From Algimonas ampicilliniresistens (lineage in GTDB: Bacteria; Pseudomonadota; Alphaproteobacteria; Caulobacterales; Maricaulaceae): a stretch of 64,000 nucleotides of DNA. Positions 1,934-64,000 of this stretch are shown piece after piece. Numbering within the stretch: the first letter of the stretch is position 1; the number at the start of each line of letters is the position of its first letter. The stretch spans positions 248,001-312,000 of the forward strand of contig NZ_BSNK01000002.1 of NCBI RefSeq assembly GCF_030159955.1, given 5' to 3'. A program made the translations under genes and the position numbers. The notes under the pieces are model-generated. The model did not search any database and was not told the origin of the DNA. It saw only the letters and a program-made list of their open reading frames with translations.

Positions 1934-3123
1934 CCGTCCTTGAGCGTCACTTCGGCCAAACGCGGCAGTGTGCAGCGATGTGGTTCAGTCTCGACCCGCA
2001 TATTTTTGGAACCATTGGCGAGGTCCGCATTAAAGACCTCGGCTTCGGGCTCTTCAATACAGATCATCGGATCATCTTCGCCGCGAACAAAGCCGTCCCA
2101 AAGCACGTGCGGGAAGCGTCCGGTCAGGCCGAACTTCACAGTCTTGGCCGCTTTCAACTCCATCCCGTCCGGCTTATGGCCGCCGCCTGAGAGCGTATTA
2201 GAATGGACGTGGATGCGATCCGGATAGGGATCGAACGTGTCGGAGAAAGAGCTGTCCGCGAAGTTGCTGGAGTAGACTGAGGCAATAATGATGTTGGCCG
2301 TCCGGTTGTCGCGAATACGGTTTTCGAAAATCTCAACATCGTCATGACTGTTTACAACGACCCCTGAGCCCGCCGGAATGCTGGCCACGGGCGTACCGGG
2401 ATGGCCGAAATTGCCGCGGTCATTTTCGTAAACGTCATTATCATAGACGCGCACGCGCGCACCGGGCTGGGTTAACCCGGGCATGTTGAAAACAAGAATG
2501 CCGCCCGTATTATCCGTTGCGACATTACCGTAGACATCGGCGTCCTGCGTATTTTCAATCTCAATTCCGGCGACATTGCGTTCGGCACGGCTGTTGCGCA
2601 CGATCACGCCCTTACTCTGACCGACGTAAATCCCTGCATCTGACGCGCCAATTGCAACCACACCTTCGATCAGCACATTGGTCGTCTGTACCGGGTAAAG
2701 ACCGTAGGCACCGTTTTCGGTCTTCGCTTCACCCGTCCATTCGACGCGGACGCCGCGAATGGTCACACCGTCCGTATCATTGATCTTAATCGCGTCACCT
2801 TTGGCATCCTCAACTGCGAAATTCTCCAGCACGACATTGTCGCCTGTGATGAGCAGACCTTCAGCGCCTGCAATCTGCCCTTTGAAGGAAAGGATGGACT
2901 GATCCATGCCTTCACCGCGAATGGTCACGCCTTCTGCCGTTAATGACAGACCGCGATCAAGACTGTGTGTTCCAGCCGGAATGGTAATGACATCGCCCGG
3001 TTGCGCATCAAGCAGAGCCAGTTGCAACGTGTCCTGATACGCCGTGTCGGTGATAGCTTCTGGTTCAGCCTGCGAACAGGCCGCGAGACAGAGCGCCGTT
3101 CCCACGATAAGATATTTACGCAT
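1930..3123 (-). CDS. Parallel beta-helix repeat lipoprotein, TIGR03805-like
   Basis: This is a 397-residue exported lipoprotein (MRKYLIVGTALCLAACSQ, acylated Cys about residue 16). The body is a right-handed parallel beta-helix, with repeated turns such as GVTIRGEGMD, NVVLENFAVEDA and GVIVRNSRAERN, resembling the pectate-lyase/CASH fold. A longer reading starting at 3303 is possible. I chose the ATG at 3123 because it has a strong ribosome site (GGAGG about 7 bases upstream) and gives a clean lipoprotein signal. It is the first gene of an operon with the diheme cytochrome and the PhyH protein. Known members always pair with that cytochrome, and their function is unknown. Confidence 0.85.
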   Translation of the reverse strand: MRKYLIVGTALCLAACSQAEPEAITDTAYQDTLQLALLDAQPGDVITIPAGTHSLDRGLSLTAEGVTIRGEGMDQSILSFKGQIAGAEGLLITGDNVVLENFAVEDAKGDAIKINDTDGVTIRGVRVEWTGEAKTENGAYGLYPVQTTNVLIEGVVAIGASDAGIYVGQSKGVIVRNSRAERNVAGIEIENTQDADVYGNVATDNTGGILVFNMPGLTQPGARVRVYDNDVYENDRGNFGHPGTPVASIPAGSGVVVNSHDDVEIFENRIRDNRTANIIIASVYSSNFADSSFSDTFDPYPDRIHVHSNTLSGGGHKPDGMELKAAKTVKFGLTGRFPHVLWDGFVRGEDDPMICIEEPEAEVFNADLANGSKNMRVETEPHRCTLPRLAEVTLKDG

Positions 3124-3886
3124 GATTGATCCTCCCCCCAATGATAATGAAGCGAAGCCCGCCAAGGTCAAGAGAGAGGCCGCATCATCTGCGGGCGGAT
3201 ATAAGCAACGCTGGCAGCGTATCTTGGCACGCTCAACTATTGGAGCGGGCGTCCTATTCCTCGCGGTGCATGCACTCGGACTTACCTTTGCTGTCATGCC
3301 CATTCAGGGCACGCTCAACATGATGATGCGGCCCGACGGGACGAAACTGCGACACGACTGGGTGCCCTTGGAGCAAATCTCACCCCATCTGGTGCGCGCA
3401 GTGATCGCAGCGGAAGATTCGCGGTTTTGTGAGCATGGCGGGATTGATTTTGACGCGCTGGAAGAGGCGATCGAAGATAATCAAGCGGGCGGACGGCTGC
3501 GTGGCGGCTCAACCTTGACGCAGCAAACCGCCAAGAATGTATTTCTCTGGAATGGCGGCGGCTATGCCCGAAAAGCGGCAGAGGCGTGGCTCGCCCTTTA
3601 TATCGACAGTATCTGGACCAAACGCCGGACGATGGAAGTCTACCTGAACATTGCCGAATGGGGCGACGGCATTTTTGGGGCAGAAGCCGCAGCCCAGTTG
3701 CGTTTTGGCAAATCAGCAGCGGACTTGTCCCGCGAGGATGCCGCGCTGCTCGCTGCCGTGTTGCCGAGCCCGAACAAATGGCGCGTCAATCCGCCGGGCG
3801 CTTATGTGCGGGGCCGCGCAAATACGCTGACGCAGCGCGCCCAGGTTGTCGAGAATGAGGGCTTAGATCGCTGCGTTTTAAAGTAA
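3122..3886 (+). CDS. mtgA: Monofunctional biosynthetic peptidoglycan transglycosylase
   Basis: This 254-residue GT51 enzyme polymerises lipid II into glycan strands at the periplasmic face of the inner membrane. A cytoplasmic tail is followed by one transmembrane anchor (about 36-60). The catalytic motif is EDSRFCEHGG with E98 as the catalytic Glu, followed by GGSTLTQQTAKN (128-139) and KRRTMEVYLNIAEWG. The C-terminal part AALLAAVLPSPNKWRVNPP is also typical. There is no transpeptidase domain, as expected for MtgA. The ATG at 3122 is the first in-frame start that keeps the anchor without running far into the divergent gene. It overlaps the divergent start codon in a single CATG. The ribosome site is weak, so a later TTG start is an alternative. 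Confidence 0.9.
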   Translation: MIDPPPNDNEAKPAKVKREAASSAGGYKQRWQRILARSTIGAGVLFLAVHALGLTFAVMPIQGTLNMMMRPDGTKLRHDWVPLEQISPHLVRAVIAAEDSRFCEHGGIDFDALEEAIEDNQAGGRLRGGSTLTQQTAKNVFLWNGGGYARKAAEAWLALYIDSIWTKRRTMEVYLNIAEWGDGIFGAEAAAQLRFGKSAADLSREDAALLAAVLPSPNKWRVNPPGAYVRGRANTLTQRAQVVENEGLDRCVLK

Positions 3887-3901
3887 CAGGCGCGAGCCAA
3901 G

Positions 3902-5098
3902 CTAGCTCAAGACGCTCAGCAACGCGTCAGCGACGCCGGGAATGTTGCTCGCATTGGCCCCAGCAATATTTATGCGGCCCGAATTGGTCATATAGATCGC
4001 ATGATCTTCGCGCAGACGGATGGCCTGATCTTTAGTCACGGGCAACATGGAAAACATACCGTTTTGGGCGACCACGGCCCGCGCTATGGCTTCGCCGCCT
4101 TGCACATTGAGCGCTTCTGACAAGAGCTGTCTCAGACCATTAATACGCTCCCGCATTTCGGTCAGCTCGTCCATCCACATCCGTTTCAAATCGCCATTGC
4201 CCAGAATTCGTTCGACAATCTGCGCGCCGTGATCGGGCGGCATAGAGATCAGTGTCCGTTGAATCGCTCCAAGCCGGGATTGAATAACAACCGCCTCATC
4301 TGGATTGTTGCAAACGACGGCCAGCAAGCCGACCCGCTCTTTATAGAGGCCGTAATTTTTAGATGCTGATACGGTAAATAGGCTTTCTGCACAGTCCCGA
4401 ACCACTAGCCGCAATCCGTAACCATCATCTTCAATCCCGCGACCCAGGCCCAGATAGGCCAGATCAATGAAAGGAACGAGCCCGCGCTCATTCATAAACG
4501 GTACCAATCGGTCCCATTCCGCATGCGACAGGTCCGCCCCCGTCGGGTTGTGGCAACAGCCATGCAGCAGGACGAGATCGCCGGGCTTGGCGTTGGCATC
4601 CAGATGCGCCAGCATATCGTCGAAATCGACGCCGAGCGTGTCGCGATTATAATAAGGATAGTTCTGTAGCTTTAGTCCGGTCGAACCGATGAGCGGAATA
4701 TGGTTGGCCCATGTCGGAGTTGAGACCCAGACCGTTGCGTCCGGTGCAGCCGCTTGGACAAGCTGTGCGCCAAGACGCAGCGCGCCCGATCCGCCCGCCG
4801 CCTGCGACGAGGCAATACGACCGCTGCCTAGCACCGGGTGATCGGTCCCAAGAACCAGTTCGAGCATGGTTTCGCGAAACCCGACGCGCCCTGTCGTGCC
4901 GACATAGGTTTTGGTTTTCTCCTCGCCGAAAATGATTTCTTCAGCCGTCTTGACCGCCCGCATAATCGGAACCGTTCCGGCAGCGTCCTTATAGACACCA
5001 ACGCCGAGATCGACCTTGTCCGTGCGCGTGTCCGCTTTGCATTGCTGCATCAAAGCCATGATAGCGTCAGGTGGAAGGGAATCGAGACGGTCAAACAT
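3902..5098 (-). CDS. Aromatic/aspartate amino acid aminotransferase (class I)
   Basis: This 398-residue PLP enzyme belongs to the aspartate/aromatic aminotransferase group (AspC/TyrB type). The PLP lysine is K247 in SASKNYG. The cofactor-binding HNPTG is at 183-187, D212 should contact the pyridine nitrogen, and R375 (SGRINIAG) should bind the substrate alpha-carboxylate. Length and motif spacing fit the family. It is cytoplasmic and probably interconverts glutamate with oxaloacetate or aromatic 2-oxo acids; which of these cannot be decided here. It stands alone, tail-to-tail with mtgA. Confidence 0.9.
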   Translation of the reverse strand: MFDRLDSLPPDAIMALMQQCKADTRTDKVDLGVGVYKDAAGTVPIMRAVKTAEEIIFGEEKTKTYVGTTGRVGFRETMLELVLGTDHPVLGSGRIASSQAAGGSGALRLGAQLVQAAAPDATVWVSTPTWANHIPLIGSTGLKLQNYPYYNRDTLGVDFDDMLAHLDANAKPGDLVLLHGCCHNPTGADLSHAEWDRLVPFMNERGLVPFIDLAYLGLGRGIEDDGYGLRLVVRDCAESLFTVSASKNYGLYKERVGLLAVVCNNPDEAVVIQSRLGAIQRTLISMPPDHGAQIVERILGNGDLKRMWMDELTEMRERINGLRQLLSEALNVQGGEAIARAVVAQNGMFSMLPVTKDQAIRLREDHAIYMTNSGRINIAGANASNIPGVADALLSVLS

Positions 5099-5193
5099 AG
5101 GGGCGCTCTAGCCCAATCCGTCGCAGCCAACCAGTAGGGTTCGAATCCAAATTTATGGTTTCACTAGACATGCCCGTCGGTTAGCGCGGAGCT

Positions 5194-6501
5194 ATGCAAA
5201 AAACGGCGCAACATATTCTTCTGTCTATCCTGATCGGGGTAAATCTGTCGGCCTGTCGCTCGGACACATCCGACTCGGACGATACGTCCGCCCCCACGAC
5301 CGAAACCGCATTCGATGCCGCGTCTGTTTGGGCCACACTTCGAAACGACTTTGATCTTTTCTATGCCTATCGCGACGATCGTGGCTTTGATGCCGATGCC
5401 TATCTCGACAGAGTTGGGACGCTGGTTAGCGCGGCGCCAGACCGCGCCACCTTCCGCCGTCAACTGCACCGCGCCACATACGCATTTACCGATCCGCATC
5501 TCGGCTTCGGACCTGCAGAGGATGGCGATTTTAATATTATCCCAACTTCATCCGACTTGCAGATCGATCACCGCGCGGGACAATATTACGTCGCCGATGT
5601 GCGAAGCGACTCCGCCGCCTATGAGGCCGGCATTCGACCCGGTTGGATTTTAAATACTGCCGATGAGCGACCCATTCAGGATCTCGCCGCCGCTGTGTTT
5701 ACGGATTTGATCGACACCCCATCTGACGCGCAGTTAGATTATGCCGGGACGCTCTTGGCAAATGGACGGCGCGTTGGAGATCGGTCGCTAGTATTTCTAA
5801 CCCCGGAAGGCGAAACGCAGCGGCTAGACCTCGCCAATCCAAGAGAGCAAGCGCGGGCTGTCATGGCCCGTCCGGCTATTGAAACACAGCGTATCGCGAC
5901 CCCAGACGGATCTATGATCGCGGTAATACGGATCAATAATCGGCTCGGCGACAATGATCTCATCACCGGGTTCGACGCTGCTATGGCCGAGGTGATGGAA
6001 GCCGATGGACTGATCCTCGACCTTCGAAATACGCCGAGCGGTGGAAATTCAGAAGTAGGCCGTTCCATCATGGGACATTTCACCGATAGAGTGCGGCCCT
6101 TTCAAATCCATACGATCCCGTCTCTTGAACGGGAATTCACCGTCCCGCGCCGTTTCGTCGAACAGGTCACTCCGCGCAGTCCCAACTTTGACCCGTTCCG
6201 GACCGTTGTCCTAGGCGGGCATTGGACTGGCAGTATGGGCGAAGGCATTGTTATTGGGATGGACGCGCTGGGCGTGCATAGCATCGCGTCCGATATGGGC
6301 GATCTGCTGGGCGCAATGAGCAACTTTTCCTTTGCGGACCAGACGATCACTCTGTCAATTCCGACCGAAGCTCTATTCCATGTTGACGGTACGCCGCGTG
6401 AGGATTTCGTGGCTGACCAATCTCTCACTTCTGCCGACAGCGATGAAAATGCAGGCGATCCGGCTTTGGAGGCCGCCTTGATCTATCTTCGTGATCAATA
6501 G
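5194..6501 (+). CDS. S41-family (tail-specific/C-terminal processing) peptidase lipoprotein
   Basis: This 435-residue protein has a lipobox at C21 (VNLSACRS) and an acidic, Asp/Ser-rich linker after it. A PDZ-like segment (about 130-175; VADVRSDSAAYEAGIRPG) is followed by the S41 peptidase core. The core shows GLILDLRNTPSGGN (272-285) and the nucleophile motif WTGSMGEG with S347. It probably acts as a membrane-anchored periplasmic serine protease. The residues after the nucleophile differ slightly from the usual SAAE, so activity is likely but not certain. A GGAG lies very close to the ATG. No operon partner is evident. Confidence 0.85.
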   Translation: MQKTAQHILLSILIGVNLSACRSDTSDSDDTSAPTTETAFDAASVWATLRNDFDLFYAYRDDRGFDADAYLDRVGTLVSAAPDRATFRRQLHRATYAFTDPHLGFGPAEDGDFNIIPTSSDLQIDHRAGQYYVADVRSDSAAYEAGIRPGWILNTADERPIQDLAAAVFTDLIDTPSDAQLDYAGTLLANGRRVGDRSLVFLTPEGETQRLDLANPREQARAVMARPAIETQRIATPDGSMIAVIRINNRLGDNDLITGFDAAMAEVMEADGLILDLRNTPSGGNSEVGRSIMGHFTDRVRPFQIHTIPSLEREFTVPRRFVEQVTPRSPNFDPFRTVVLGGHWTGSMGEGIVIGMDALGVHSIASDMGDLLGAMSNFSFADQTITLSIPTEALFHVDGTPREDFVADQSLTSADSDENAGDPALEAALIYLRDQ

Positions 6502-6623
6502 CGCCGCCCGACCCTAGCCAGAATCGACATTAGCCCTTGGCGTGTCGTCGGGCATGCGGCAAGTGAACGTCTAGACGACGCGTGCCATCAACCGGCCGCG
6601 AGGGGAGACATCCAGGGGATATA

Positions 6624-8105
6624 ATGGAAACTTTCGCCAGCTTAATGGAAACCTTTAACGGAATTGTCTGGGGTCCCCCCATGATGATCTTGTTATTAGG
6701 AACCGGCTTATTCCTGACGATCGGGATGCGATTCCGGTCGATCACAAAGATCATTTACGGTTTCAGTCAACTGTTCAGGAAACGCGGCGCAAACACTGAC
6801 GATGGTGATGTGTCGCCGTTCGCGGCTTTGATGATGGCCCTGTCGTCCACCGTTGGGACGGGCAACATTGCCGGTGTCGCGGCCGCAATCGCCATTGGCG
6901 GACCGGGTGCGGTCTTCTGGATGTGGGTGACGGCGATCCTCGGCACTGCAACCAAATATTCCGAAGGTGTGCTTGCGGTGCGGTATCGCGAAATCGATGC
7001 CAACGGGAACCGCGTTGGTGGACCGATGTATTATATCAAAAACGGCCTCGGCCCGAAGTGGCTGTGGCTGGCGGGGGCCTTCGCCTTGTTTGGCATGATC
7101 GGCGCGCTTTCAACCGGCAACGCCGTCCAAGCCAACTCCATCGCTGATGCGCTGCAAAGCCAATATAGTTTCGATCCGCGTTGGGTGGCTGTGGTCCTCT
7201 CGCTCCTCGTTGGGGGCGTCATTTTTGGCGGTATCACGCGGATCGGCGCTGTCGCCTCCCGCCTCGTACCGTTCATGGCCGTGCTATATATCTCTGCCGC
7301 TCTAATCGTTATCCTTGCTAATTTCGGCAATGTTCCTGCCGCCTTTGGCCTAATCTTCAAAGGGGCTTTCGGCGCACAGGAAGCCGGAACGGGCATCACG
7401 ATCGGCCTGATGATGTTGGCCATGCAAAAGGGTATCGCCCGCGGCCTATTTTCTAACGAGGCCGGACAGGGATCCGCCCCTATCGCCCATGCGGCAGCGC
7501 AGAATAATGACCCTGTCAATCAGGGCATGATCGCCATGCTCGGCACGGTGATCGACACATTGATCATCTGCACGCTGACAGCCTTGGTTATCCTGACGTC
7601 CGGCGTGGTCGGCGCGGACTGTCTGGCCAGCCCAGCCATCTTGGAAATCCTTGAAAGCGGCTCAACTCCAGCAGGATGTGAGATTGGTGTTCCGCTAACT
7701 GCGGCCGCATTTGAATCAACACTGGTCGGGTTTGGCGCGCATATCGTGACGATCAGCCTGTGTATCTTCGCCTTCACCACCATTATCGGCTGGTCCTATT
7801 ATGGTGAGCGGTGCACGGCTTTTCTGTTCAAAGAAAAATCTATTCCTGTCTTCCGCGTCTTCTGGGTGGTCGCCGTATTTGCGTCGACCTTCGCACTGGC
7901 GTTTGAAACCGGTGAAGACAATATGGTGGTCGCTACCTTCTGGCTCATCGCGGATAGTTTGACAGGGCTGATGGCTCTACCCAATCTGATTGGCTTAGCC
8001 TTGCTCTCACCAATCGTCTTCAAGCTGACGAAAGATTATTTCGACAAGCTGAAGGAAGCCAATGACGGTTTGATTGATCAGGACGACCTGCCGCGCGGCA
8101 GCTAA
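6624..8105 (+). CDS. Sodium:alanine/glycine symporter, AGCS family
   Basis: This is a 493-residue inner-membrane protein with about ten or eleven hydrophobic segments. Family signatures are clear: GTGNIAGVAAAIAIGGPGA followed by FWMWV, the GGPMYYI block, and GIARGLFSNEAGQGSAPIAH. AGCS proteins import alanine or glycine with Na+. I placed the start at the ATG at 6624 because AGGGG sits five bases upstream; an in-frame ATG 42 bases earlier lacks this. The gene is single and ends at a strong intrinsic terminator. Confidence 0.93.
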   Translation: METFASLMETFNGIVWGPPMMILLLGTGLFLTIGMRFRSITKIIYGFSQLFRKRGANTDDGDVSPFAALMMALSSTVGTGNIAGVAAAIAIGGPGAVFWMWVTAILGTATKYSEGVLAVRYREIDANGNRVGGPMYYIKNGLGPKWLWLAGAFALFGMIGALSTGNAVQANSIADALQSQYSFDPRWVAVVLSLLVGGVIFGGITRIGAVASRLVPFMAVLYISAALIVILANFGNVPAAFGLIFKGAFGAQEAGTGITIGLMMLAMQKGIARGLFSNEAGQGSAPIAHAAAQNNDPVNQGMIAMLGTVIDTLIICTLTALVILTSGVVGADCLASPAILEILESGSTPAGCEIGVPLTAAAFESTLVGFGAHIVTISLCIFAFTTIIGWSYYGERCTAFLFKEKSIPVFRVFWVVAVFASTFALAFETGEDNMVVATFWLIADSLTGLMALPNLIGLALLSPIVFKLTKDYFDKLKEANDGLIDQDDLPRGS

Positions 8106-8123
8106 GATCCACACCCAATCCAT

Positions 8124-8156
8124 GAAAAAGCCCGCCTCACTGAGGCGGGCTTTTTT
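8124..8156 (+). terminator. Intrinsic terminator of the AGCS symporter gene
   Basis: A ten-base GC-rich stem (AGCCCGCCTC pairing with GAGGCGGGCT) with a three-base loop is followed by a run of six T. It lies about 25 bases after the symporter stop codon. Because A's precede the stem, it could also work on the opposite strand for the convergent gene. Confidence 0.9.
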
Positions 8157-8182
8157 GATGCCGTTACATCAGGACGCTATCG

Positions 8183-9445
8183 TTAGCGTTGTCGCCGGCT
8201 CTCATAAATGACCGTCCGTGCGTCAGAAGAGGCGCCAGGAGCCGTATAAGCGGGACCAGAATATGATCGGTTGGGCTGGCCACTTTTGCCAAGCCGGGTT
8301 GTCGTCGCGCCATGCGCATAAGTGCCTTGATAGCCCGACGTGTAACCGGTGGAATAAGCAGGCTGTCTGACCGCCAGAGTCCCATGCGTTACCGCAGGAA
8401 TATGGGTTGTCGTGGCAGTATGCGTCGTCCGATATGTCACAGGCGCGCTGGACTGAACTGTCGTGCGGTGGTGGATCTGTTGTTGATTCTGGCCAACAAG
8501 ATGACCGGACTTATGGATACTCGTCGATGACGATGGATAGACTGTGTGGCCGGAAGATCGGTGCGCGATTCCCGAAGACGCACCCGGTTTACAGACGACA
8601 CGACGCCATTCGTAACGCGATTCAGACACCAATCGACGGCCGTCAACTTGGCCATATTCCGCCGGAACCTCAACATAGGCCTGACCGCCCGGATGGATGA
8701 TGTCTTGTATTTCGATGGACTGATACTCGGCTGGGACCGGCACTTTATGGACGCCGCCCGGATCTGTCACAACTTGCTGCGTGATCGCCTGATAGGCTGG
8801 CGGGACGGGTGTGCGCTGTATCTGCCCGGGACTTGTCATTACTTGACGGGTAACGGTCACACTGTCGCCAGGCTCTTCAACCAAGCACCAGATTTCACAC
8901 ATGGGCCCACATCGGCTTCCGCCAGTTTTACCGTATTGCGTGGTCGAACTATAGCCGCGGCCACCAACGCCAGCGTCGGCAGTTGAATGAATAATATAAC
9001 CTTGTGCACGAAGTTTGGCCGGATTGCCGCGCTTCCAGACCAACCTCGGCGCGCCCGTTTGCACAGTCTCGGTCACAGACTTGAAGTGTGGGTGGCTTAC
9101 GGAGAGCTTGTCATAACCCGGACGGGTCATCACATGTTTAGTCACGGTCGAATAGGTCGGCTGCCGCACAACATAACGCACGCTCGGCTCTTTCACCATA
9201 ATGGACTCGGTCCTCGAGCGCAGTTGCGGTTGCTGCACATGGAGACGTTTATGCGCTTCGCGCGTCACGACACGTTCCGTGGTCCGTTCATATTGAGCGG
9301 GAATTTCGACGCGCGCATAGCATTCACCCACCGCCGGGTTTGGCGGTAGCAGGTCTGGTTTATAGGCAGGCTGCTGCGTTCCAGCGAGCGCAGGGCCAGC
9401 TAGGAGCAGGAATGTTGTGCCTAAAAGGGCGCGGCGGTACGTCAT
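8183..9445 (-). CDS. Secreted repeat protein with VPAEY-type repeats
   Basis: This 420-residue protein has a signal peptide (cleavage near LAGPALAG, about residue 21). The start of the mature part (AVGECYARVEIPAQYE) resembles the periplasmic repeat region seen in some OmpA-related proteins. About eight degenerate repeats of roughly 23 residues follow, with consensus near V-P-x-x-Y-Q-x-x-x-x-Q-V-x-x-x-P-G-G. Examples are PVPPAYQAITQQVVTDPGG and PVPAEYQSIEIQDIIHPGG. A cysteine-bearing insert (SRCGPMCEIWC) sits between repeats four and five. The last quarter is Ser/Thr/His/Gly-rich and probably disordered. No catalytic motif or OmpA peptidoglycan domain is present. A structural envelope role is likely; the exact function is unknown. 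Confidence 0.75.
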   Translation of the reverse strand: MTYRRALLGTTFLLLAGPALAGTQQPAYKPDLLPPNPAVGECYARVEIPAQYERTTERVVTREAHKRLHVQQPQLRSRTESIMVKEPSVRYVVRQPTYSTVTKHVMTRPGYDKLSVSHPHFKSVTETVQTGAPRLVWKRGNPAKLRAQGYIIHSTADAGVGGRGYSSTTQYGKTGGSRCGPMCEIWCLVEEPGDSVTVTRQVMTSPGQIQRTPVPPAYQAITQQVVTDPGGVHKVPVPAEYQSIEIQDIIHPGGQAYVEVPAEYGQVDGRRLVSESRYEWRRVVCKPGASSGIAHRSSGHTVYPSSSTSIHKSGHLVGQNQQQIHHRTTVQSSAPVTYRTTHTATTTHIPAVTHGTLAVRQPAYSTGYTSGYQGTYAHGATTTRLGKSGQPNRSYSGPAYTAPGASSDARTVIYESRRQR

Positions 9446-59858: not shown

Positions 59859-60713
59859 ATGGGGCCATCACCACATATTCAAGCCTTTGGGGCTTATGCG
59901 CTTCCTCCCGCACGCGAACGCGTGCGGGTCAAGGCGGATGGCTGTTCTGACACACGCATTGGCCGCTGGATTATCAGCGCGCGGCGAAAACGGGCCATTA
60001 AAGGCCTGACCGAGCCCTTTGACGTGAACGTTGCGCCGGGTGTGAAAGCCCGCCTCTATCCCTCTGGCAATCGTTGCGAAAAGCGAGCTTTAGCAGGGGT
60101 TCAAGTCTGGGACTTAACCGAGCGTAATGCCCTACGTATGGCCGTGAATTCTGACTCTGGTTCTGATGAAGGTCCGTTCACTTTTTTTGACGTCGGCGCC
60201 AATGCCGGGCTCTATTCCCTGTTCGTCAACGCTTATGCGAAAACAGCCAAACGTCCTGTGCGATTAATCGCCGTGGAACCTAGCGCCGAAATGGCCTCAC
60301 GGCTTGTAGTCAATGCGGACGCATCCGAGGCTGATGTCGAGTTAATCCGGTCGGCAATTTCCGATGCGCCCGGAGAAGCGTGCTTGTCGGATGGCGGGAA
60401 TAATCGCGGCGAAGCGCAACTTTCCGATCAAGGTGAGCAGGTTAAAGTCGAGACTTTAGTGGGTCTTTGTGACCGGCTTAGCGTCACCCACATCGACGCA
60501 ATGAAGCTCGACATTGAAGGTCATGATGAACGCGCGCTACGCGCCTTTTTTGACCAAGCCCCAGAAGCGCTGCATCCGCAATTGCTGATTGTTGAGACAG
60601 CAGCTCTCAGCGGCGATCCAGTGATTGAACTGGCCCAAGCCCATAATTATTTCGTGGCAGATGCCACCTCCCTCAATGCAATTTTGAAGAAGTCTGACCA
60701 TGTCCAAACGTGA
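59859..60713 (+). CDS. FkbM-family SAM-dependent methyltransferase
   Basis: This is a 284-residue cytoplasmic protein. The SAM-binding motif is FFDVGANAGLYSLFVNAYA (109-127), with acidic VEPSAEMASRL (139-149) and the FkbM-type MKLDIEGHDERALRAF (215-230). FkbM proteins usually O-methylate sugars or polyketides. The N-terminal 60 residues are basic. It is placed between dnaK and dnaJ, and its last 14 bases overlap the dnaJ start, so it is co-translated with dnaJ. The substrate is unknown. Confidence 0.82.
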   Translation: MGPSPHIQAFGAYALPPARERVRVKADGCSDTRIGRWIISARRKRAIKGLTEPFDVNVAPGVKARLYPSGNRCEKRALAGVQVWDLTERNALRMAVNSDSGSDEGPFTFFDVGANAGLYSLFVNAYAKTAKRPVRLIAVEPSAEMASRLVVNADASEADVELIRSAISDAPGEACLSDGGNNRGEAQLSDQGEQVKVETLVGLCDRLSVTHIDAMKLDIEGHDERALRAFFDQAPEALHPQLLIVETAALSGDPVIELAQAHNYFVADATSLNAILKKSDHVQT

Positions 60714-61877: not shown

Positions 61878-62372
61878 ATGTTCAGCCTAGCCCGCCTGTC
61901 CCAGCGCACGCTGTTCACAGGTCTCATGTCTGGTCTCGCCACTCTGTTTGGCAGCTCTCTGGCCGCGCGGCGCATTGTCGGACAGGCCGACGTCCTGACC
62001 GACGTGATTAAAATTGGCGGTGTTATTGCTGTCGGAACGGTGGTGCTCAGTTTCATTTTTTGGACCGTGACCCATTGGCGAAGAAAGGGTTCAGTCCGTG
62101 CGCCTATTCGGGGAGCAATCGCAGGGCTGCTTACGGCGCTCTGTGTCATCCCGCTTCCGGTCTTTGCGTGGAAACTGAAATCGGATGTTCTGGCTGCCTA
62201 TGCCAATGACCAAACTCACCTCATCGCCGCTTTTTTTGAGGCGCTGCCGGCCGCGATAGGGACGGGTCTGCTGACCTTTGAGGTCATGACCAAAGCGTCT
62301 CTAATCGCCATGGTTCTCAGCGTGGGTCTTGGTTATTCTGTGTCGCGCTGGGGTCCGGACCGGGCCGTCTAA
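61878..62372 (+). CDS. Membrane protein of unknown function
   Basis: This 164-residue protein has about four hydrophobic segments (near 8-24, 42-62, 81-97, 135-155). No family was recognised. It follows dnaJ by 20 bases in the same direction and may be the last gene of that transcript. Its 3' end overlaps the convergent avidin-like gene by 56 bases, so both carboxyl ends share DNA in opposite strands. Confidence 0.65.
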   Translation: MFSLARLSQRTLFTGLMSGLATLFGSSLAARRIVGQADVLTDVIKIGGVIAVGTVVLSFIFWTVTHWRRKGSVRAPIRGAIAGLLTALCVIPLPVFAWKLKSDVLAAYANDQTHLIAAFFEALPAAIGTGLLTFEVMTKASLIAMVLSVGLGYSVSRWGPDRAV

Positions 62373-62760
62373 ACGTCGCCGCACCAGCCGTGATCGAGCG
62401 CCAGAGATCTTCGATCTCATCCTCTTCCGCAATGTCGCGCGTATGCTGCCAGAGTGTACGAATGAACTCGCCCTCTTCGTCCGCGCTCAACTGACCCGAC
62501 CAGCTCGTGATCGAGCCAAAGCTGGTAAAGTTGACAGAAAATGCCACCACATCGCCCTGCGCCCAACCCGTCAGAGCGAATTGACTCTCCGCATCAGGTT
62601 TGCCGAGTTCCGTCTGATAATACCCGCTTAGTGAGCCGTCTTCAGCGACTGAGATTTGAACTGCCGACCCGGCTTCATTAATCCAGAGACCGTCTAGATC
62701 GTTTGCATAAGCGGCTTCACACCCGCCTAGCAGGATGGCCATGAGGGCGATTTTACGCAT
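62317..62760 (-). CDS. Avidin/streptavidin-family biotin-binding protein
   Basis: This 147-residue exported protein has a signal with a possible lipobox (LLGGC, Cys 14) or a signal peptidase I site (AAYA-ND, residue 19). The mature part aligns by eye along streptavidin: GLWINEAGS, DGSLSGYYQT, FALTG, VAFSVNF, ITSWSGQ, RTLWQHT, EDLWRSI and AATFRR. Equivalent biotin contacts kept are N28 (N23), S32 (S27), Y48 (Y43), S83 (S88), T85 (T90), W87 (W92), W104 (W108) and W120 (W120). Changes are T50 for S45, F78 for W79, H106 for L110 and A128 for D128. It overlaps the antiporter gene by eight bases and is probably translationally coupled to it. Confidence 0.8.
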   Translation of the reverse strand: MRKIALMAILLGGCEAAYANDLDGLWINEAGSAVQISVAEDGSLSGYYQTELGKPDAESQFALTGWAQGDVVAFSVNFTSFGSITSWSGQLSADEEGEFIRTLWQHTRDIAEEDEIEDLWRSITAGAATFRRPGPDPSATQNNQDPR

Positions 62761-64000
62761 AGGTGAAACCCAGTACGAGATAGGCTGCGACAGTCACACC
62801 CCCGGCCAGAAGCGCGTAGGGCAGTTGAGTCCTAATATGGTCGATATGATCGGAGCCCGATGCCATTGAGGCTATGATCGACGTGTCACTGGTGGGACTA
62901 CAATGGTCGCCAAAGACGCCGCCGCCAATAGCTGCCGCAATGGCGAGTGAGGGATCGATACCGTAGCTAGCCGCCAGAGGCACGGCGATCGGGATCATGA
63001 TGGCAAACGTGCCCCAACTGGTCCCTGTCGAGAACGCGACGAAACAGCTAATTAAAAAGACAAGCGCGGGCATCAAAGCTGGAGACAAGAAGGCCGATGT
63101 GACCTCTGCCGTAAACACGCCCGTACCCAGCGTTCGGCACAGGCTGCCGAGCGCAAAGGCGAGCAGCATCAAGATGGCCAGCGGCAGCATGCCGCCCATG
63201 CCCTTGATCGCTGTGTCGGCGCTTTCACGGACGCCCAGCACACCTTGCGCCTTATAGAGAATGATGGCGAGCGCCACGGCGATTGAGGTCGAATAGAGTA
63301 TGGCAGACGAGCCCGAACCGTCCTGCATCCGCGCGAACCAGCTATCGCCTTCACCGGTCATAATCAGGAATATCGGCACTAATACGACCATTGTCAGGAT
63401 CGGCATGATCATGTTGAGCGCCCGCGGGGTTGCGCCGGGCGCAGGCGGAATGTCTGAAGCCTCATCCGAGATCATCGGGACAGCGCCCTCACGCAATAAT
63501 GTGCCCCTCGCTTCCGCTGTTTTCATCTCACCAATGTCGCGACGCGTCAGAATGACGACCAACAATATAACAATGATCAGCATAGGGTAGAAGTTGAACA
63601 GGGCCGCTTGGATTAATTGCGAGAAGGGCTGGCTCAATCCTTCAGCGGCAATCAATCCCATTAGATAGGCCCCCCAGGCATTGAATGGGATCAGCACGCA
63701 AGACGGGGCAGACCCCGTATCGGCAATCAAGGCCAGTTTTTCGCGCGGCATACCGAGCTTGTCTGTCACAGGCCGGAACAGAGTCCCGACCGTCAGGATT
63801 GAAATATTGCTTTCTATAAAAAGAAGCAGACCCATGCCCAAAGCGAACAGTTCCACCAGAACTCGCTGGTCTTTTGATTCCGCGCTCTTCACGCGCCGAT
63901 CCAGCCATGCCAGCAATCGTTCGATAAAACCCGCCACGCCGCCTGAACGCTGGATCAGCGCAATCAACGCCCCAATCACGAGCGTGAAAATAATGACTCG
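62753..64000 (-). CDS. NhaC-type Na+/H+ antiporter (5' end outside window)
   Basis: At least 415 residues of a polytopic membrane protein are visible; the reading frame stays open to the window edge, so the N-terminus is missing. NhaC-family features include FIESNISILTVGTLFRPV, DTGSAPSCVLIPFNAWGAYL, FSTGTSWGTFAIMIPIAVPL and GGGVFGDHCSPTSDTSIIASMASG. It probably exchanges Na+ for H+ or carries a related solute at the inner membrane. Its stop overlaps the avidin-like gene. Confidence 0.9.
   Translation of the reverse strand, partial: RVIIFTLVIGALIALIQRSGGVAGFIERLLAWLDRRVKSAESKDQRVLVELFALGMGLLLFIESNISILTVGTLFRPVTDKLGMPREKLALIADTGSAPSCVLIPFNAWGAYLMGLIAAEGLSQPFSQLIQAALFNFYPMLIIVILLVVILTRRDIGEMKTAEARGTLLREGAVPMISDEASDIPPAPGATPRALNMIMPILTMVVLVPIFLIMTGEGDSWFARMQDGSGSSAILYSTSIAVALAIILYKAQGVLGVRESADTAIKGMGGMLPLAILMLLAFALGSLCRTLGTGVFTAEVTSAFLSPALMPALVFLISCFVAFSTGTSWGTFAIMIPIAVPLAASYGIDPSLAIAAAIGGGVFGDHCSPTSDTSIIASMASGSDHIDHIRTQLPYALLAGGVTVAAYLVLGFTYA

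Follow-up and report, generated by a model that had tools for sequence, protein, structure and literature searches.

A distinct clade of avidins with a changed ureido site, usually encoded beside an NhaC-family transporter gene, in Algimonas and its relatives

The stretch of DNA analyzed here (the window) comprises 64,000 nucleotides of the Algimonas ampicilliniresistens genome, and near its end an avidin-family gene overlaps the end of an NhaC-family transporter gene on the reverse strand; on its other side it faces a convergent open reading frame (ORF) that separates it from dnaJ (Table 1). The part of the transporter inside the window scores 178 bits against PF03553 (cut-off 23), and the NhaC equivalog TIGR00931 (NCBIfam), scored on this in-window part of the protein, gives 58 bits against a cut-off of 370. 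Homologues of the convergent ORF stand beside dnaJ in many relatives; its product looks by eye like a small membrane protein, and no family was found for it in Pfam or NCBIfam. An Rfam scan of the whole window gave no match.

Table 1. Features of the avidin locus and related ORFs (window positions unless a locus label is given)
Feature	Position	Strand	Basis or remark
Avidin-family gene, 147 codons plus stop	62317..62760	-	ORF list, Pfam match, relatives
Avidin domain, residues 22-130	62371..62697	-	Pfam match; model with eight strands within residues 24-131
Signal peptide with possible lipobox LLGGC (residues 10-14), Cys14	62719..62760	-	Sequence; Cys at this column in 29/37 relatives
F78 codon (W79 position of streptavidin)	62527..62529	-	F in 37/37 relatives
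A128 codon (D128 position of streptavidin)	62377..62379	-	A in 14, S in 23 of 37 relatives
NhaC-family transporter gene, 5' end beyond the window	62753..64000	-	PF03553, E 3.5e-52; relatives
Overlap of the nhaC end with the avidin start, 8 bases, ATGCGTAA	62753..62760	-	Exact; pattern [AG]TGNNTAR kept in 27/34 loci
Convergent ORF between dnaJ and avidin	61878..62372	+	3' end overlaps avidin 3' end by 56 bases
FkbM-family methyltransferase gene between dnaK and dnaJ	59859..60713	+	TIGR01444, 62 bits (cut-off 37.7)
Carboxylesterase-like ORFs	L032 1388-2713; L045 5087-6367; L067 4518-5861; L064 4238-5737; L038 1461-2765; L042 7370-8665		

The window protein is a genuine member of the avidin (streptavidin) family, as the initial annotation had claimed. 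It matches PF01382 (Avidin, Pfam-A) with an E value of 2.4e-21 and 76.7 bits (cut-off 24) over positions 2 to 115 of the 116-position profile, and the streptavidin and xenavidin chains of solved structures align to it over about residues 20 to 137 (phmmer). A profile built from 37 relatives matches avidins, streptavidins, zebavidin, tamavidin, and wilavidin, and an avidin-family search of 14 named control genomes found none positive; the window protein scores 41.1 bits with the streptavidin equivalog NF047623 (NCBIfam), below the cut-off of 300. Its AlphaFold2 model, calculated with 41 aligned sequences, has a mean pLDDT of 88.6 and eight strands (24-27, 33-38, 43-49, 61-68, 71-78, 83-94, 97-108, and 123-131), the last preceded by a helix at 112-118; this model predicts an eight-stranded antiparallel avidin barrel. 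Compared with three near relatives, the gene has dN values of 0.11 to 0.20 and dS values of 1.5 to 2.2, the latter near saturation, and is by this measure under purifying selection. A chance ORF or pseudogene was rejected on the grounds of the Pfam match, the spread among relatives, and dN/dS.

The host genome contains a single avidin. In the host family, an avidin is present in 52 of the 138 genomes, including 17 of the 19 from the host genus, and among 399 genomes sampled from the host order there are 41 carriers, 36 of them in this family. Gene neighborhoods were compared at 51 loci, which represent every avidin genome of the family but G017 (51 of 52). A phmmer search with the window protein located the avidin in 47; the remaining four (L048, L050, L080, and L081) hold distant avidins only and stand outside these 47. 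The pocket alignment used below has 37 rows, that is, 37 of the 47 loci, and leaves out L035, L070, L058, L044, L056, L051, L052, L057, L047, and L049. Among named genomes, a single-sequence scan found no relative, and a scan with the family alignment found 44 avidin loci. Thirty-six of them are labeled as Algimonas, Litorimonas, Hellea, Robiginitomaculum, or their relatives, and the other eight as a Pseudomonadales bin, Flagellimonas, a Nitrospirae bin, Methylomonas, Pseudomonas, a Verrucomicrobiales bin, Albibeggiatoa, and Sphingomonas; an alignment of 41 rows combines the window protein with 40 of the 44, leaving out L099, L102, L111, and L118. The avidins of Flagellimonas, the Nitrospirae bin, Methylomonas, and Pseudomonas (L112, L113, L117, and L120) have D or N at position 128; a signal peptide is not evident in them by eye, and they are perhaps cytoplasmic. 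Among the titles and abstract openings searched, no avidin is described in Algimonas, Litorimonas, Hellea, or Robiginitomaculum or beside NhaC, although the supplement of PMC8033661 may list some; this article names an avidin of a Maricaulis sp.

Export, also put forward by the initial annotation, is supported by the signal peptide and looks general among the relatives. Lipid anchoring of the window avidin is probable, as LLGGC fits a lipobox and the relatives back this motif with a cysteine in 29 of 37; the cysteine has no counterpart in 8 of the 37, so that lipidation, which had been suggested for the window protein, is not universal in the clade. Rhizavidin is dimeric with disulfides, and disulfide-forming barrel cysteines mark avidins of its type. 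The window protein has no cysteine after residue 14, in agreement with the earlier statement that it is unlike the disulfide-bearing dimeric avidins, and barrel cysteines are absent in 35 of the 37 relatives; a rhizavidin-type disulfide protein was therefore rejected.

For the pocket counts, we used a list of 16 streptavidin positions that we take to be the biotin contacts. This list is borne out in part by PMC5398887. All eight pocket residues that the initial annotation described as kept (N28, S32, Y48, S83, T85, W87, W104, and W120) are present in the alignment and invariant in all 37 relatives, and T50 is threonine in 36 and serine in 1. A tetramer, to which the initial annotation alludes, would be a conjecture from W120. 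Invariance is concentrated in the pocket: of the 23 invariant positions among 111 in the domain, 10 fall on the 16 pocket positions and 13 on the other 95 (one-sided Fisher test, 8e-5). The three replacements named earlier are there as well. F78 is the equivalent of W79 according to the ungapped xenavidin alignment, a replacement with a known precedent in bradavidin (PMC5398887). H106 occupies the L110 position of streptavidin, at which 29 of the 37 relatives have leucine; judged from these sequences, H106 is particular to near relatives of the window avidin. The third replacement, A128, concerns the aspartate or asparagine usual at position 128/118 (not strictly defining for PF01382), which is absent from all 37 clade relatives.

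Among the eight loci labeled as other groups, seven have D or N at position 128, and L085 has S. In the loci left out of the alignment, the residue is S in L035, L070, and L058, as well as in L044, which has a damaged end; avidins of other kinds from the host family have D (L056, L051, L052, and L057) or S (L047 and L049). The proteins of L051, L052, and L057 (genus g18) are a different avidin with two cysteines (23 and 107) and D128, and nhaC is not nearby. A tree of 51 avidins has long branches and few firm forks and was not used for counting losses of D128. By alignment, alanine or serine at position 128 is an unusual feature of the clade. In streptavidin, the D128A replacement costs 4.4 kcal/mol (PMC4888747), which by arithmetic is roughly thousandfold; given this cost, a pocket with alanine or serine may still bind biotin well yet release it faster.

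The changed position may instead mean that the pocket is now tuned to a different ligand (dethiobiotin, biotin sulfoxide, a biotinyl compound, or some other molecule). This would fit with the constancy of A or S at position 128 throughout the clade, set against D or N in seven of the eight other-group loci, and with E115 and D70, which are invariant in the clade and neither of which is matched by streptavidin in the structure-chain alignment; furthermore, seawater contains dethiobiotin and biotin at similar levels (PMC9561691). However, the remaining ureido and thiophene contacts are kept, and 41 of the 52 avidin carriers are without the bioB that is required for using dethiobiotin. We consider such retuning unlikely.

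The host is a predicted biotin auxotroph. Its genome has nothing over the curated cut-off for bioB (a weak match only, E 9e-8), no match for bioD, and no bioA, for which the best two matches score 237 and 221 bits (cut-off 405) and are, according to NCBIfam, 4-aminobutyrate transaminase and acetylornithine transaminase. The best bioF match has 367 bits against a cut-off of 426; genuine bioF genes beside bioD in G033, G054, and G125 also fall below this cut-off, at 341 to 351 bits. The host protein is nevertheless probably a relative of bioF rather than bioF, since a protein in the same score band exists in G054 besides its bioF beside bioD. Five further bioF matches in the host genome score lower. 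Biotin ligase (TIGR00121, 118.8 bits; cut-off 83.1) and BCCP (over its cut-off) are present, whereas the BioY transporter family PF02632 is missing from the host genome and was found in 2 of the 138 genomes of the family.

Avidin-bearing members of the family seem mostly unable to make biotin. bioB scores over its cut-off in 64 of the 138 genomes; with the split gene of G078 added, it is present in 11 of the 52 genomes with avidin versus 54 of the 86 without (Fisher test, 1.8e-6), and in the 96 genomes that are at least 90% complete, in 8 of 33 versus 48 of 63 (Fisher test, 1e-6). bioD is found in 1 of the 52 avidin genomes, being thus missing in 51, compared with 23 of the other 86. The association with bioB persists without the bioB-rich genus g12 (p 6e-4), but it may reflect shared ancestry, because stratification by genus leaves a p value of only 0.08. 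Auxotrophs also manage without avidin, since 63 of the 86 avidin-free genomes have no bioD and 32 have no bioB. One genome, G033, combines avidin with bioB, bioD, and probably bioF. In another carrier, G059, two short adjacent bioB-like pieces (C3:348782-349181) are perhaps a decaying biotin synthase gene.

The coupling of the avidin gene to a transporter gene, described by the initial annotation, is an exact 8-base overlap with an antiporter-family (PF03553) partner, and it recurs among relatives. Of the 47 loci, 34 have nhaC upstream of avidin in the same orientation; in 27 of them, nhaC has the terminal pattern [AG]TGNNTAR, and an ORF starts 8 bases before its end (in L035, one of the seven exceptions, the sequence is masked there). 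The ORF that starts in the overlap is avidin itself in 20 of the 27 loci and another ORF in 7. By eye, all seven of these begin in a signal-like manner; five are carboxylesterase-like, and two are of no Pfam family (one of the two was tested). Altogether, a carboxylesterase-like ORF stands between nhaC and avidin in six loci, five times starting in the overlap, and the one put to Pfam belongs to PF00135. The ORFs between nhaC and avidin in L040 (5366-6007) and L060 (5220-5945) are related to each other, and that of L040 is the one tested against Pfam. Of 10 intact nhaC copies without avidin behind them, 1 keeps the overlap pattern. This copy, in the avidin-free genome G054 (L127), ends in GTGTCTAA, perhaps the trace of a lost downstream gene. 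The overlap suggests joint translation of nhaC and avidin.

The same arrangement raises the possibility of a dedicated biotin importer, in which the lipoprotein would catch biotin and the NhaC-family protein would move it across the inner membrane, after an exported carboxylesterase has freed biotin from esters in some genomes. The frequency of the gene pair and its exact overlap, the intervening carboxylesterase-like ORFs, and the lack of BioY in 136 of the 138 genomes would all be in keeping with it. On the other hand, known members of PF03553 are antiporters of ions or carboxylates, and nhaC orthologues lie next to and convergent with dnaK-dnaJ without any avidin in G054, which has bioB and bioD, as well as in three small genomes (G015, G020, and G021); its solitary occurrence in the likely prototroph G054 argues that NhaC has work of its own. 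Conversely, in G032 and G038 nhaC is elsewhere, and the gene that precedes avidin in the same orientation, about 0.4 kb upstream, encodes a TonB-dependent receptor. We regard the importer as quite unlikely, and a role of NhaC in biotin handling is unproven. It would be a similarly long shot that a lipoprotein avidin, coupled in translation to the NhaC-family transporter, forms with it an uptake system that stands in for BioY in a biotin-dependent marine family, with D128 given up for handing the vitamin on. The two TonB-dependent receptors, both in Hellea-type genomes (L062 of G032, 2942-5185; L058 of G038, 6429-8555), look like siderophore receptors and have some 22% likeness to each other across the first 159 residues; receptor and avidin as one system were set aside for these reasons.

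We lean, with modest confidence, toward an exported, probably lipid-anchored envelope avidin that reversibly captures and stores biotin, perhaps dethiobiotin too, for a cell that does not synthesize it. The protein would be exported to the cell envelope, probably held there by its lipid, and would catch biotin and perhaps dethiobiotin; the loss of D128 would loosen its grip enough for release, and the captured biotin would be a store for the avidin-making cell itself, which is predicted to be unable to make its own. The "biotin trap" of the initial annotation fits as regards capture but would be half the story, because a predicted auxotroph must get the vitamin back. Family, kept pocket, D128 loss in the clade, export signal, nhaC overlap, missing late biotin-synthesis genes and BioY, and the presence of ligase and BCCP are computed; biotin binding, release through the loss of D128, the anchoring membrane, and the cell as beneficiary are what we infer. 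A precedent comes from Rhizobium etli, a biotin auxotroph: its rhizavidin mutant loses growth on subculture and regains it with biotin or the gene, a phenotype that the authors read as biotin storage (PMC8914248); by analogy, in a marine bacterium that depends on biotin, an avidin in the envelope would act as rhizavidin does. Counting against storage are the prototroph-like G033 with its avidin, the auxotrophs that have none, the p value within genera, the eight relatives without a lipobox cysteine, and the regulatory region. For the latter, we assumed TTATMKATAA as the BioR consensus palindrome, and no BioR-like palindrome of this form occurs upstream of nhaC in the 34 loci (32 with at least 300 bases upstream, two shorter).

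An exported avidin could also serve to deny biotin to competitors and starve them, a function that has been suggested for streptavidin and the avidins of eggs, and roles in competition and defense are discussed in PMC8033661. Biotin denial is, however, improbable here: the host itself is predicted to need biotin, a probable lipid anchor would hold the protein on the cell, and a strong ureido contact has been lost from the pocket. Probably, the avidin helps its own cell to capture and retain the vitamin and is not there to starve competitors.

The role of bacterial avidins for their makers is not fully understood (PMC8033661), and the single bacterial avidin mutant that we found in the literature is that of rhizavidin (PMC8914248). 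In the host family, avidin is common, under purifying selection, usually provided with the same gene partner, and accompanies missing biotin synthase and BioY; a nutritional role can be put to a direct test, as there are named type strains of Algimonas, Litorimonas, and Hellea. In addition, a natural avidin without D128 could serve as a reversible biotin binder.

The window protein is thus an avidin of a distinct clade that is exported, mostly lipoprotein-like, changed at the ureido site, usually neighbored by a transporter gene, and hosted by predicted auxotrophs. It shares with streptavidin, chicken avidin, and xenavidin the family (PF01382), the predicted fold, the pocket residues N, S, Y, T, S, T, W, and W, and W120, the residue lent by a neighboring subunit in those proteins. 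Unlike streptavidin and avidin, its clade has A or S for D128/N118 and F at the W79 position, and the protein is a probable lipoprotein. BtuG is unrelated to avidins as a protein. A surface lipoprotein that binds vitamin B12 (PMC6143338), it would embody the same idea of a vitamin-catching lipoprotein. Bradavidin is likewise alphaproteobacterial, with phenylalanine at W70/W79 and tryptophan at F79/W92, but it keeps Asp107 at the 128 position (PMC5398887). Rhizavidin differs from the window avidin, whose barrel has no cysteine, and co-occurs with biotin transport genes (PMC8914248), whereas the window host is without BioY; the two are alike as avidins of biotin-auxotrophic alphaproteobacteria, auxotrophy being predicted for the window host.
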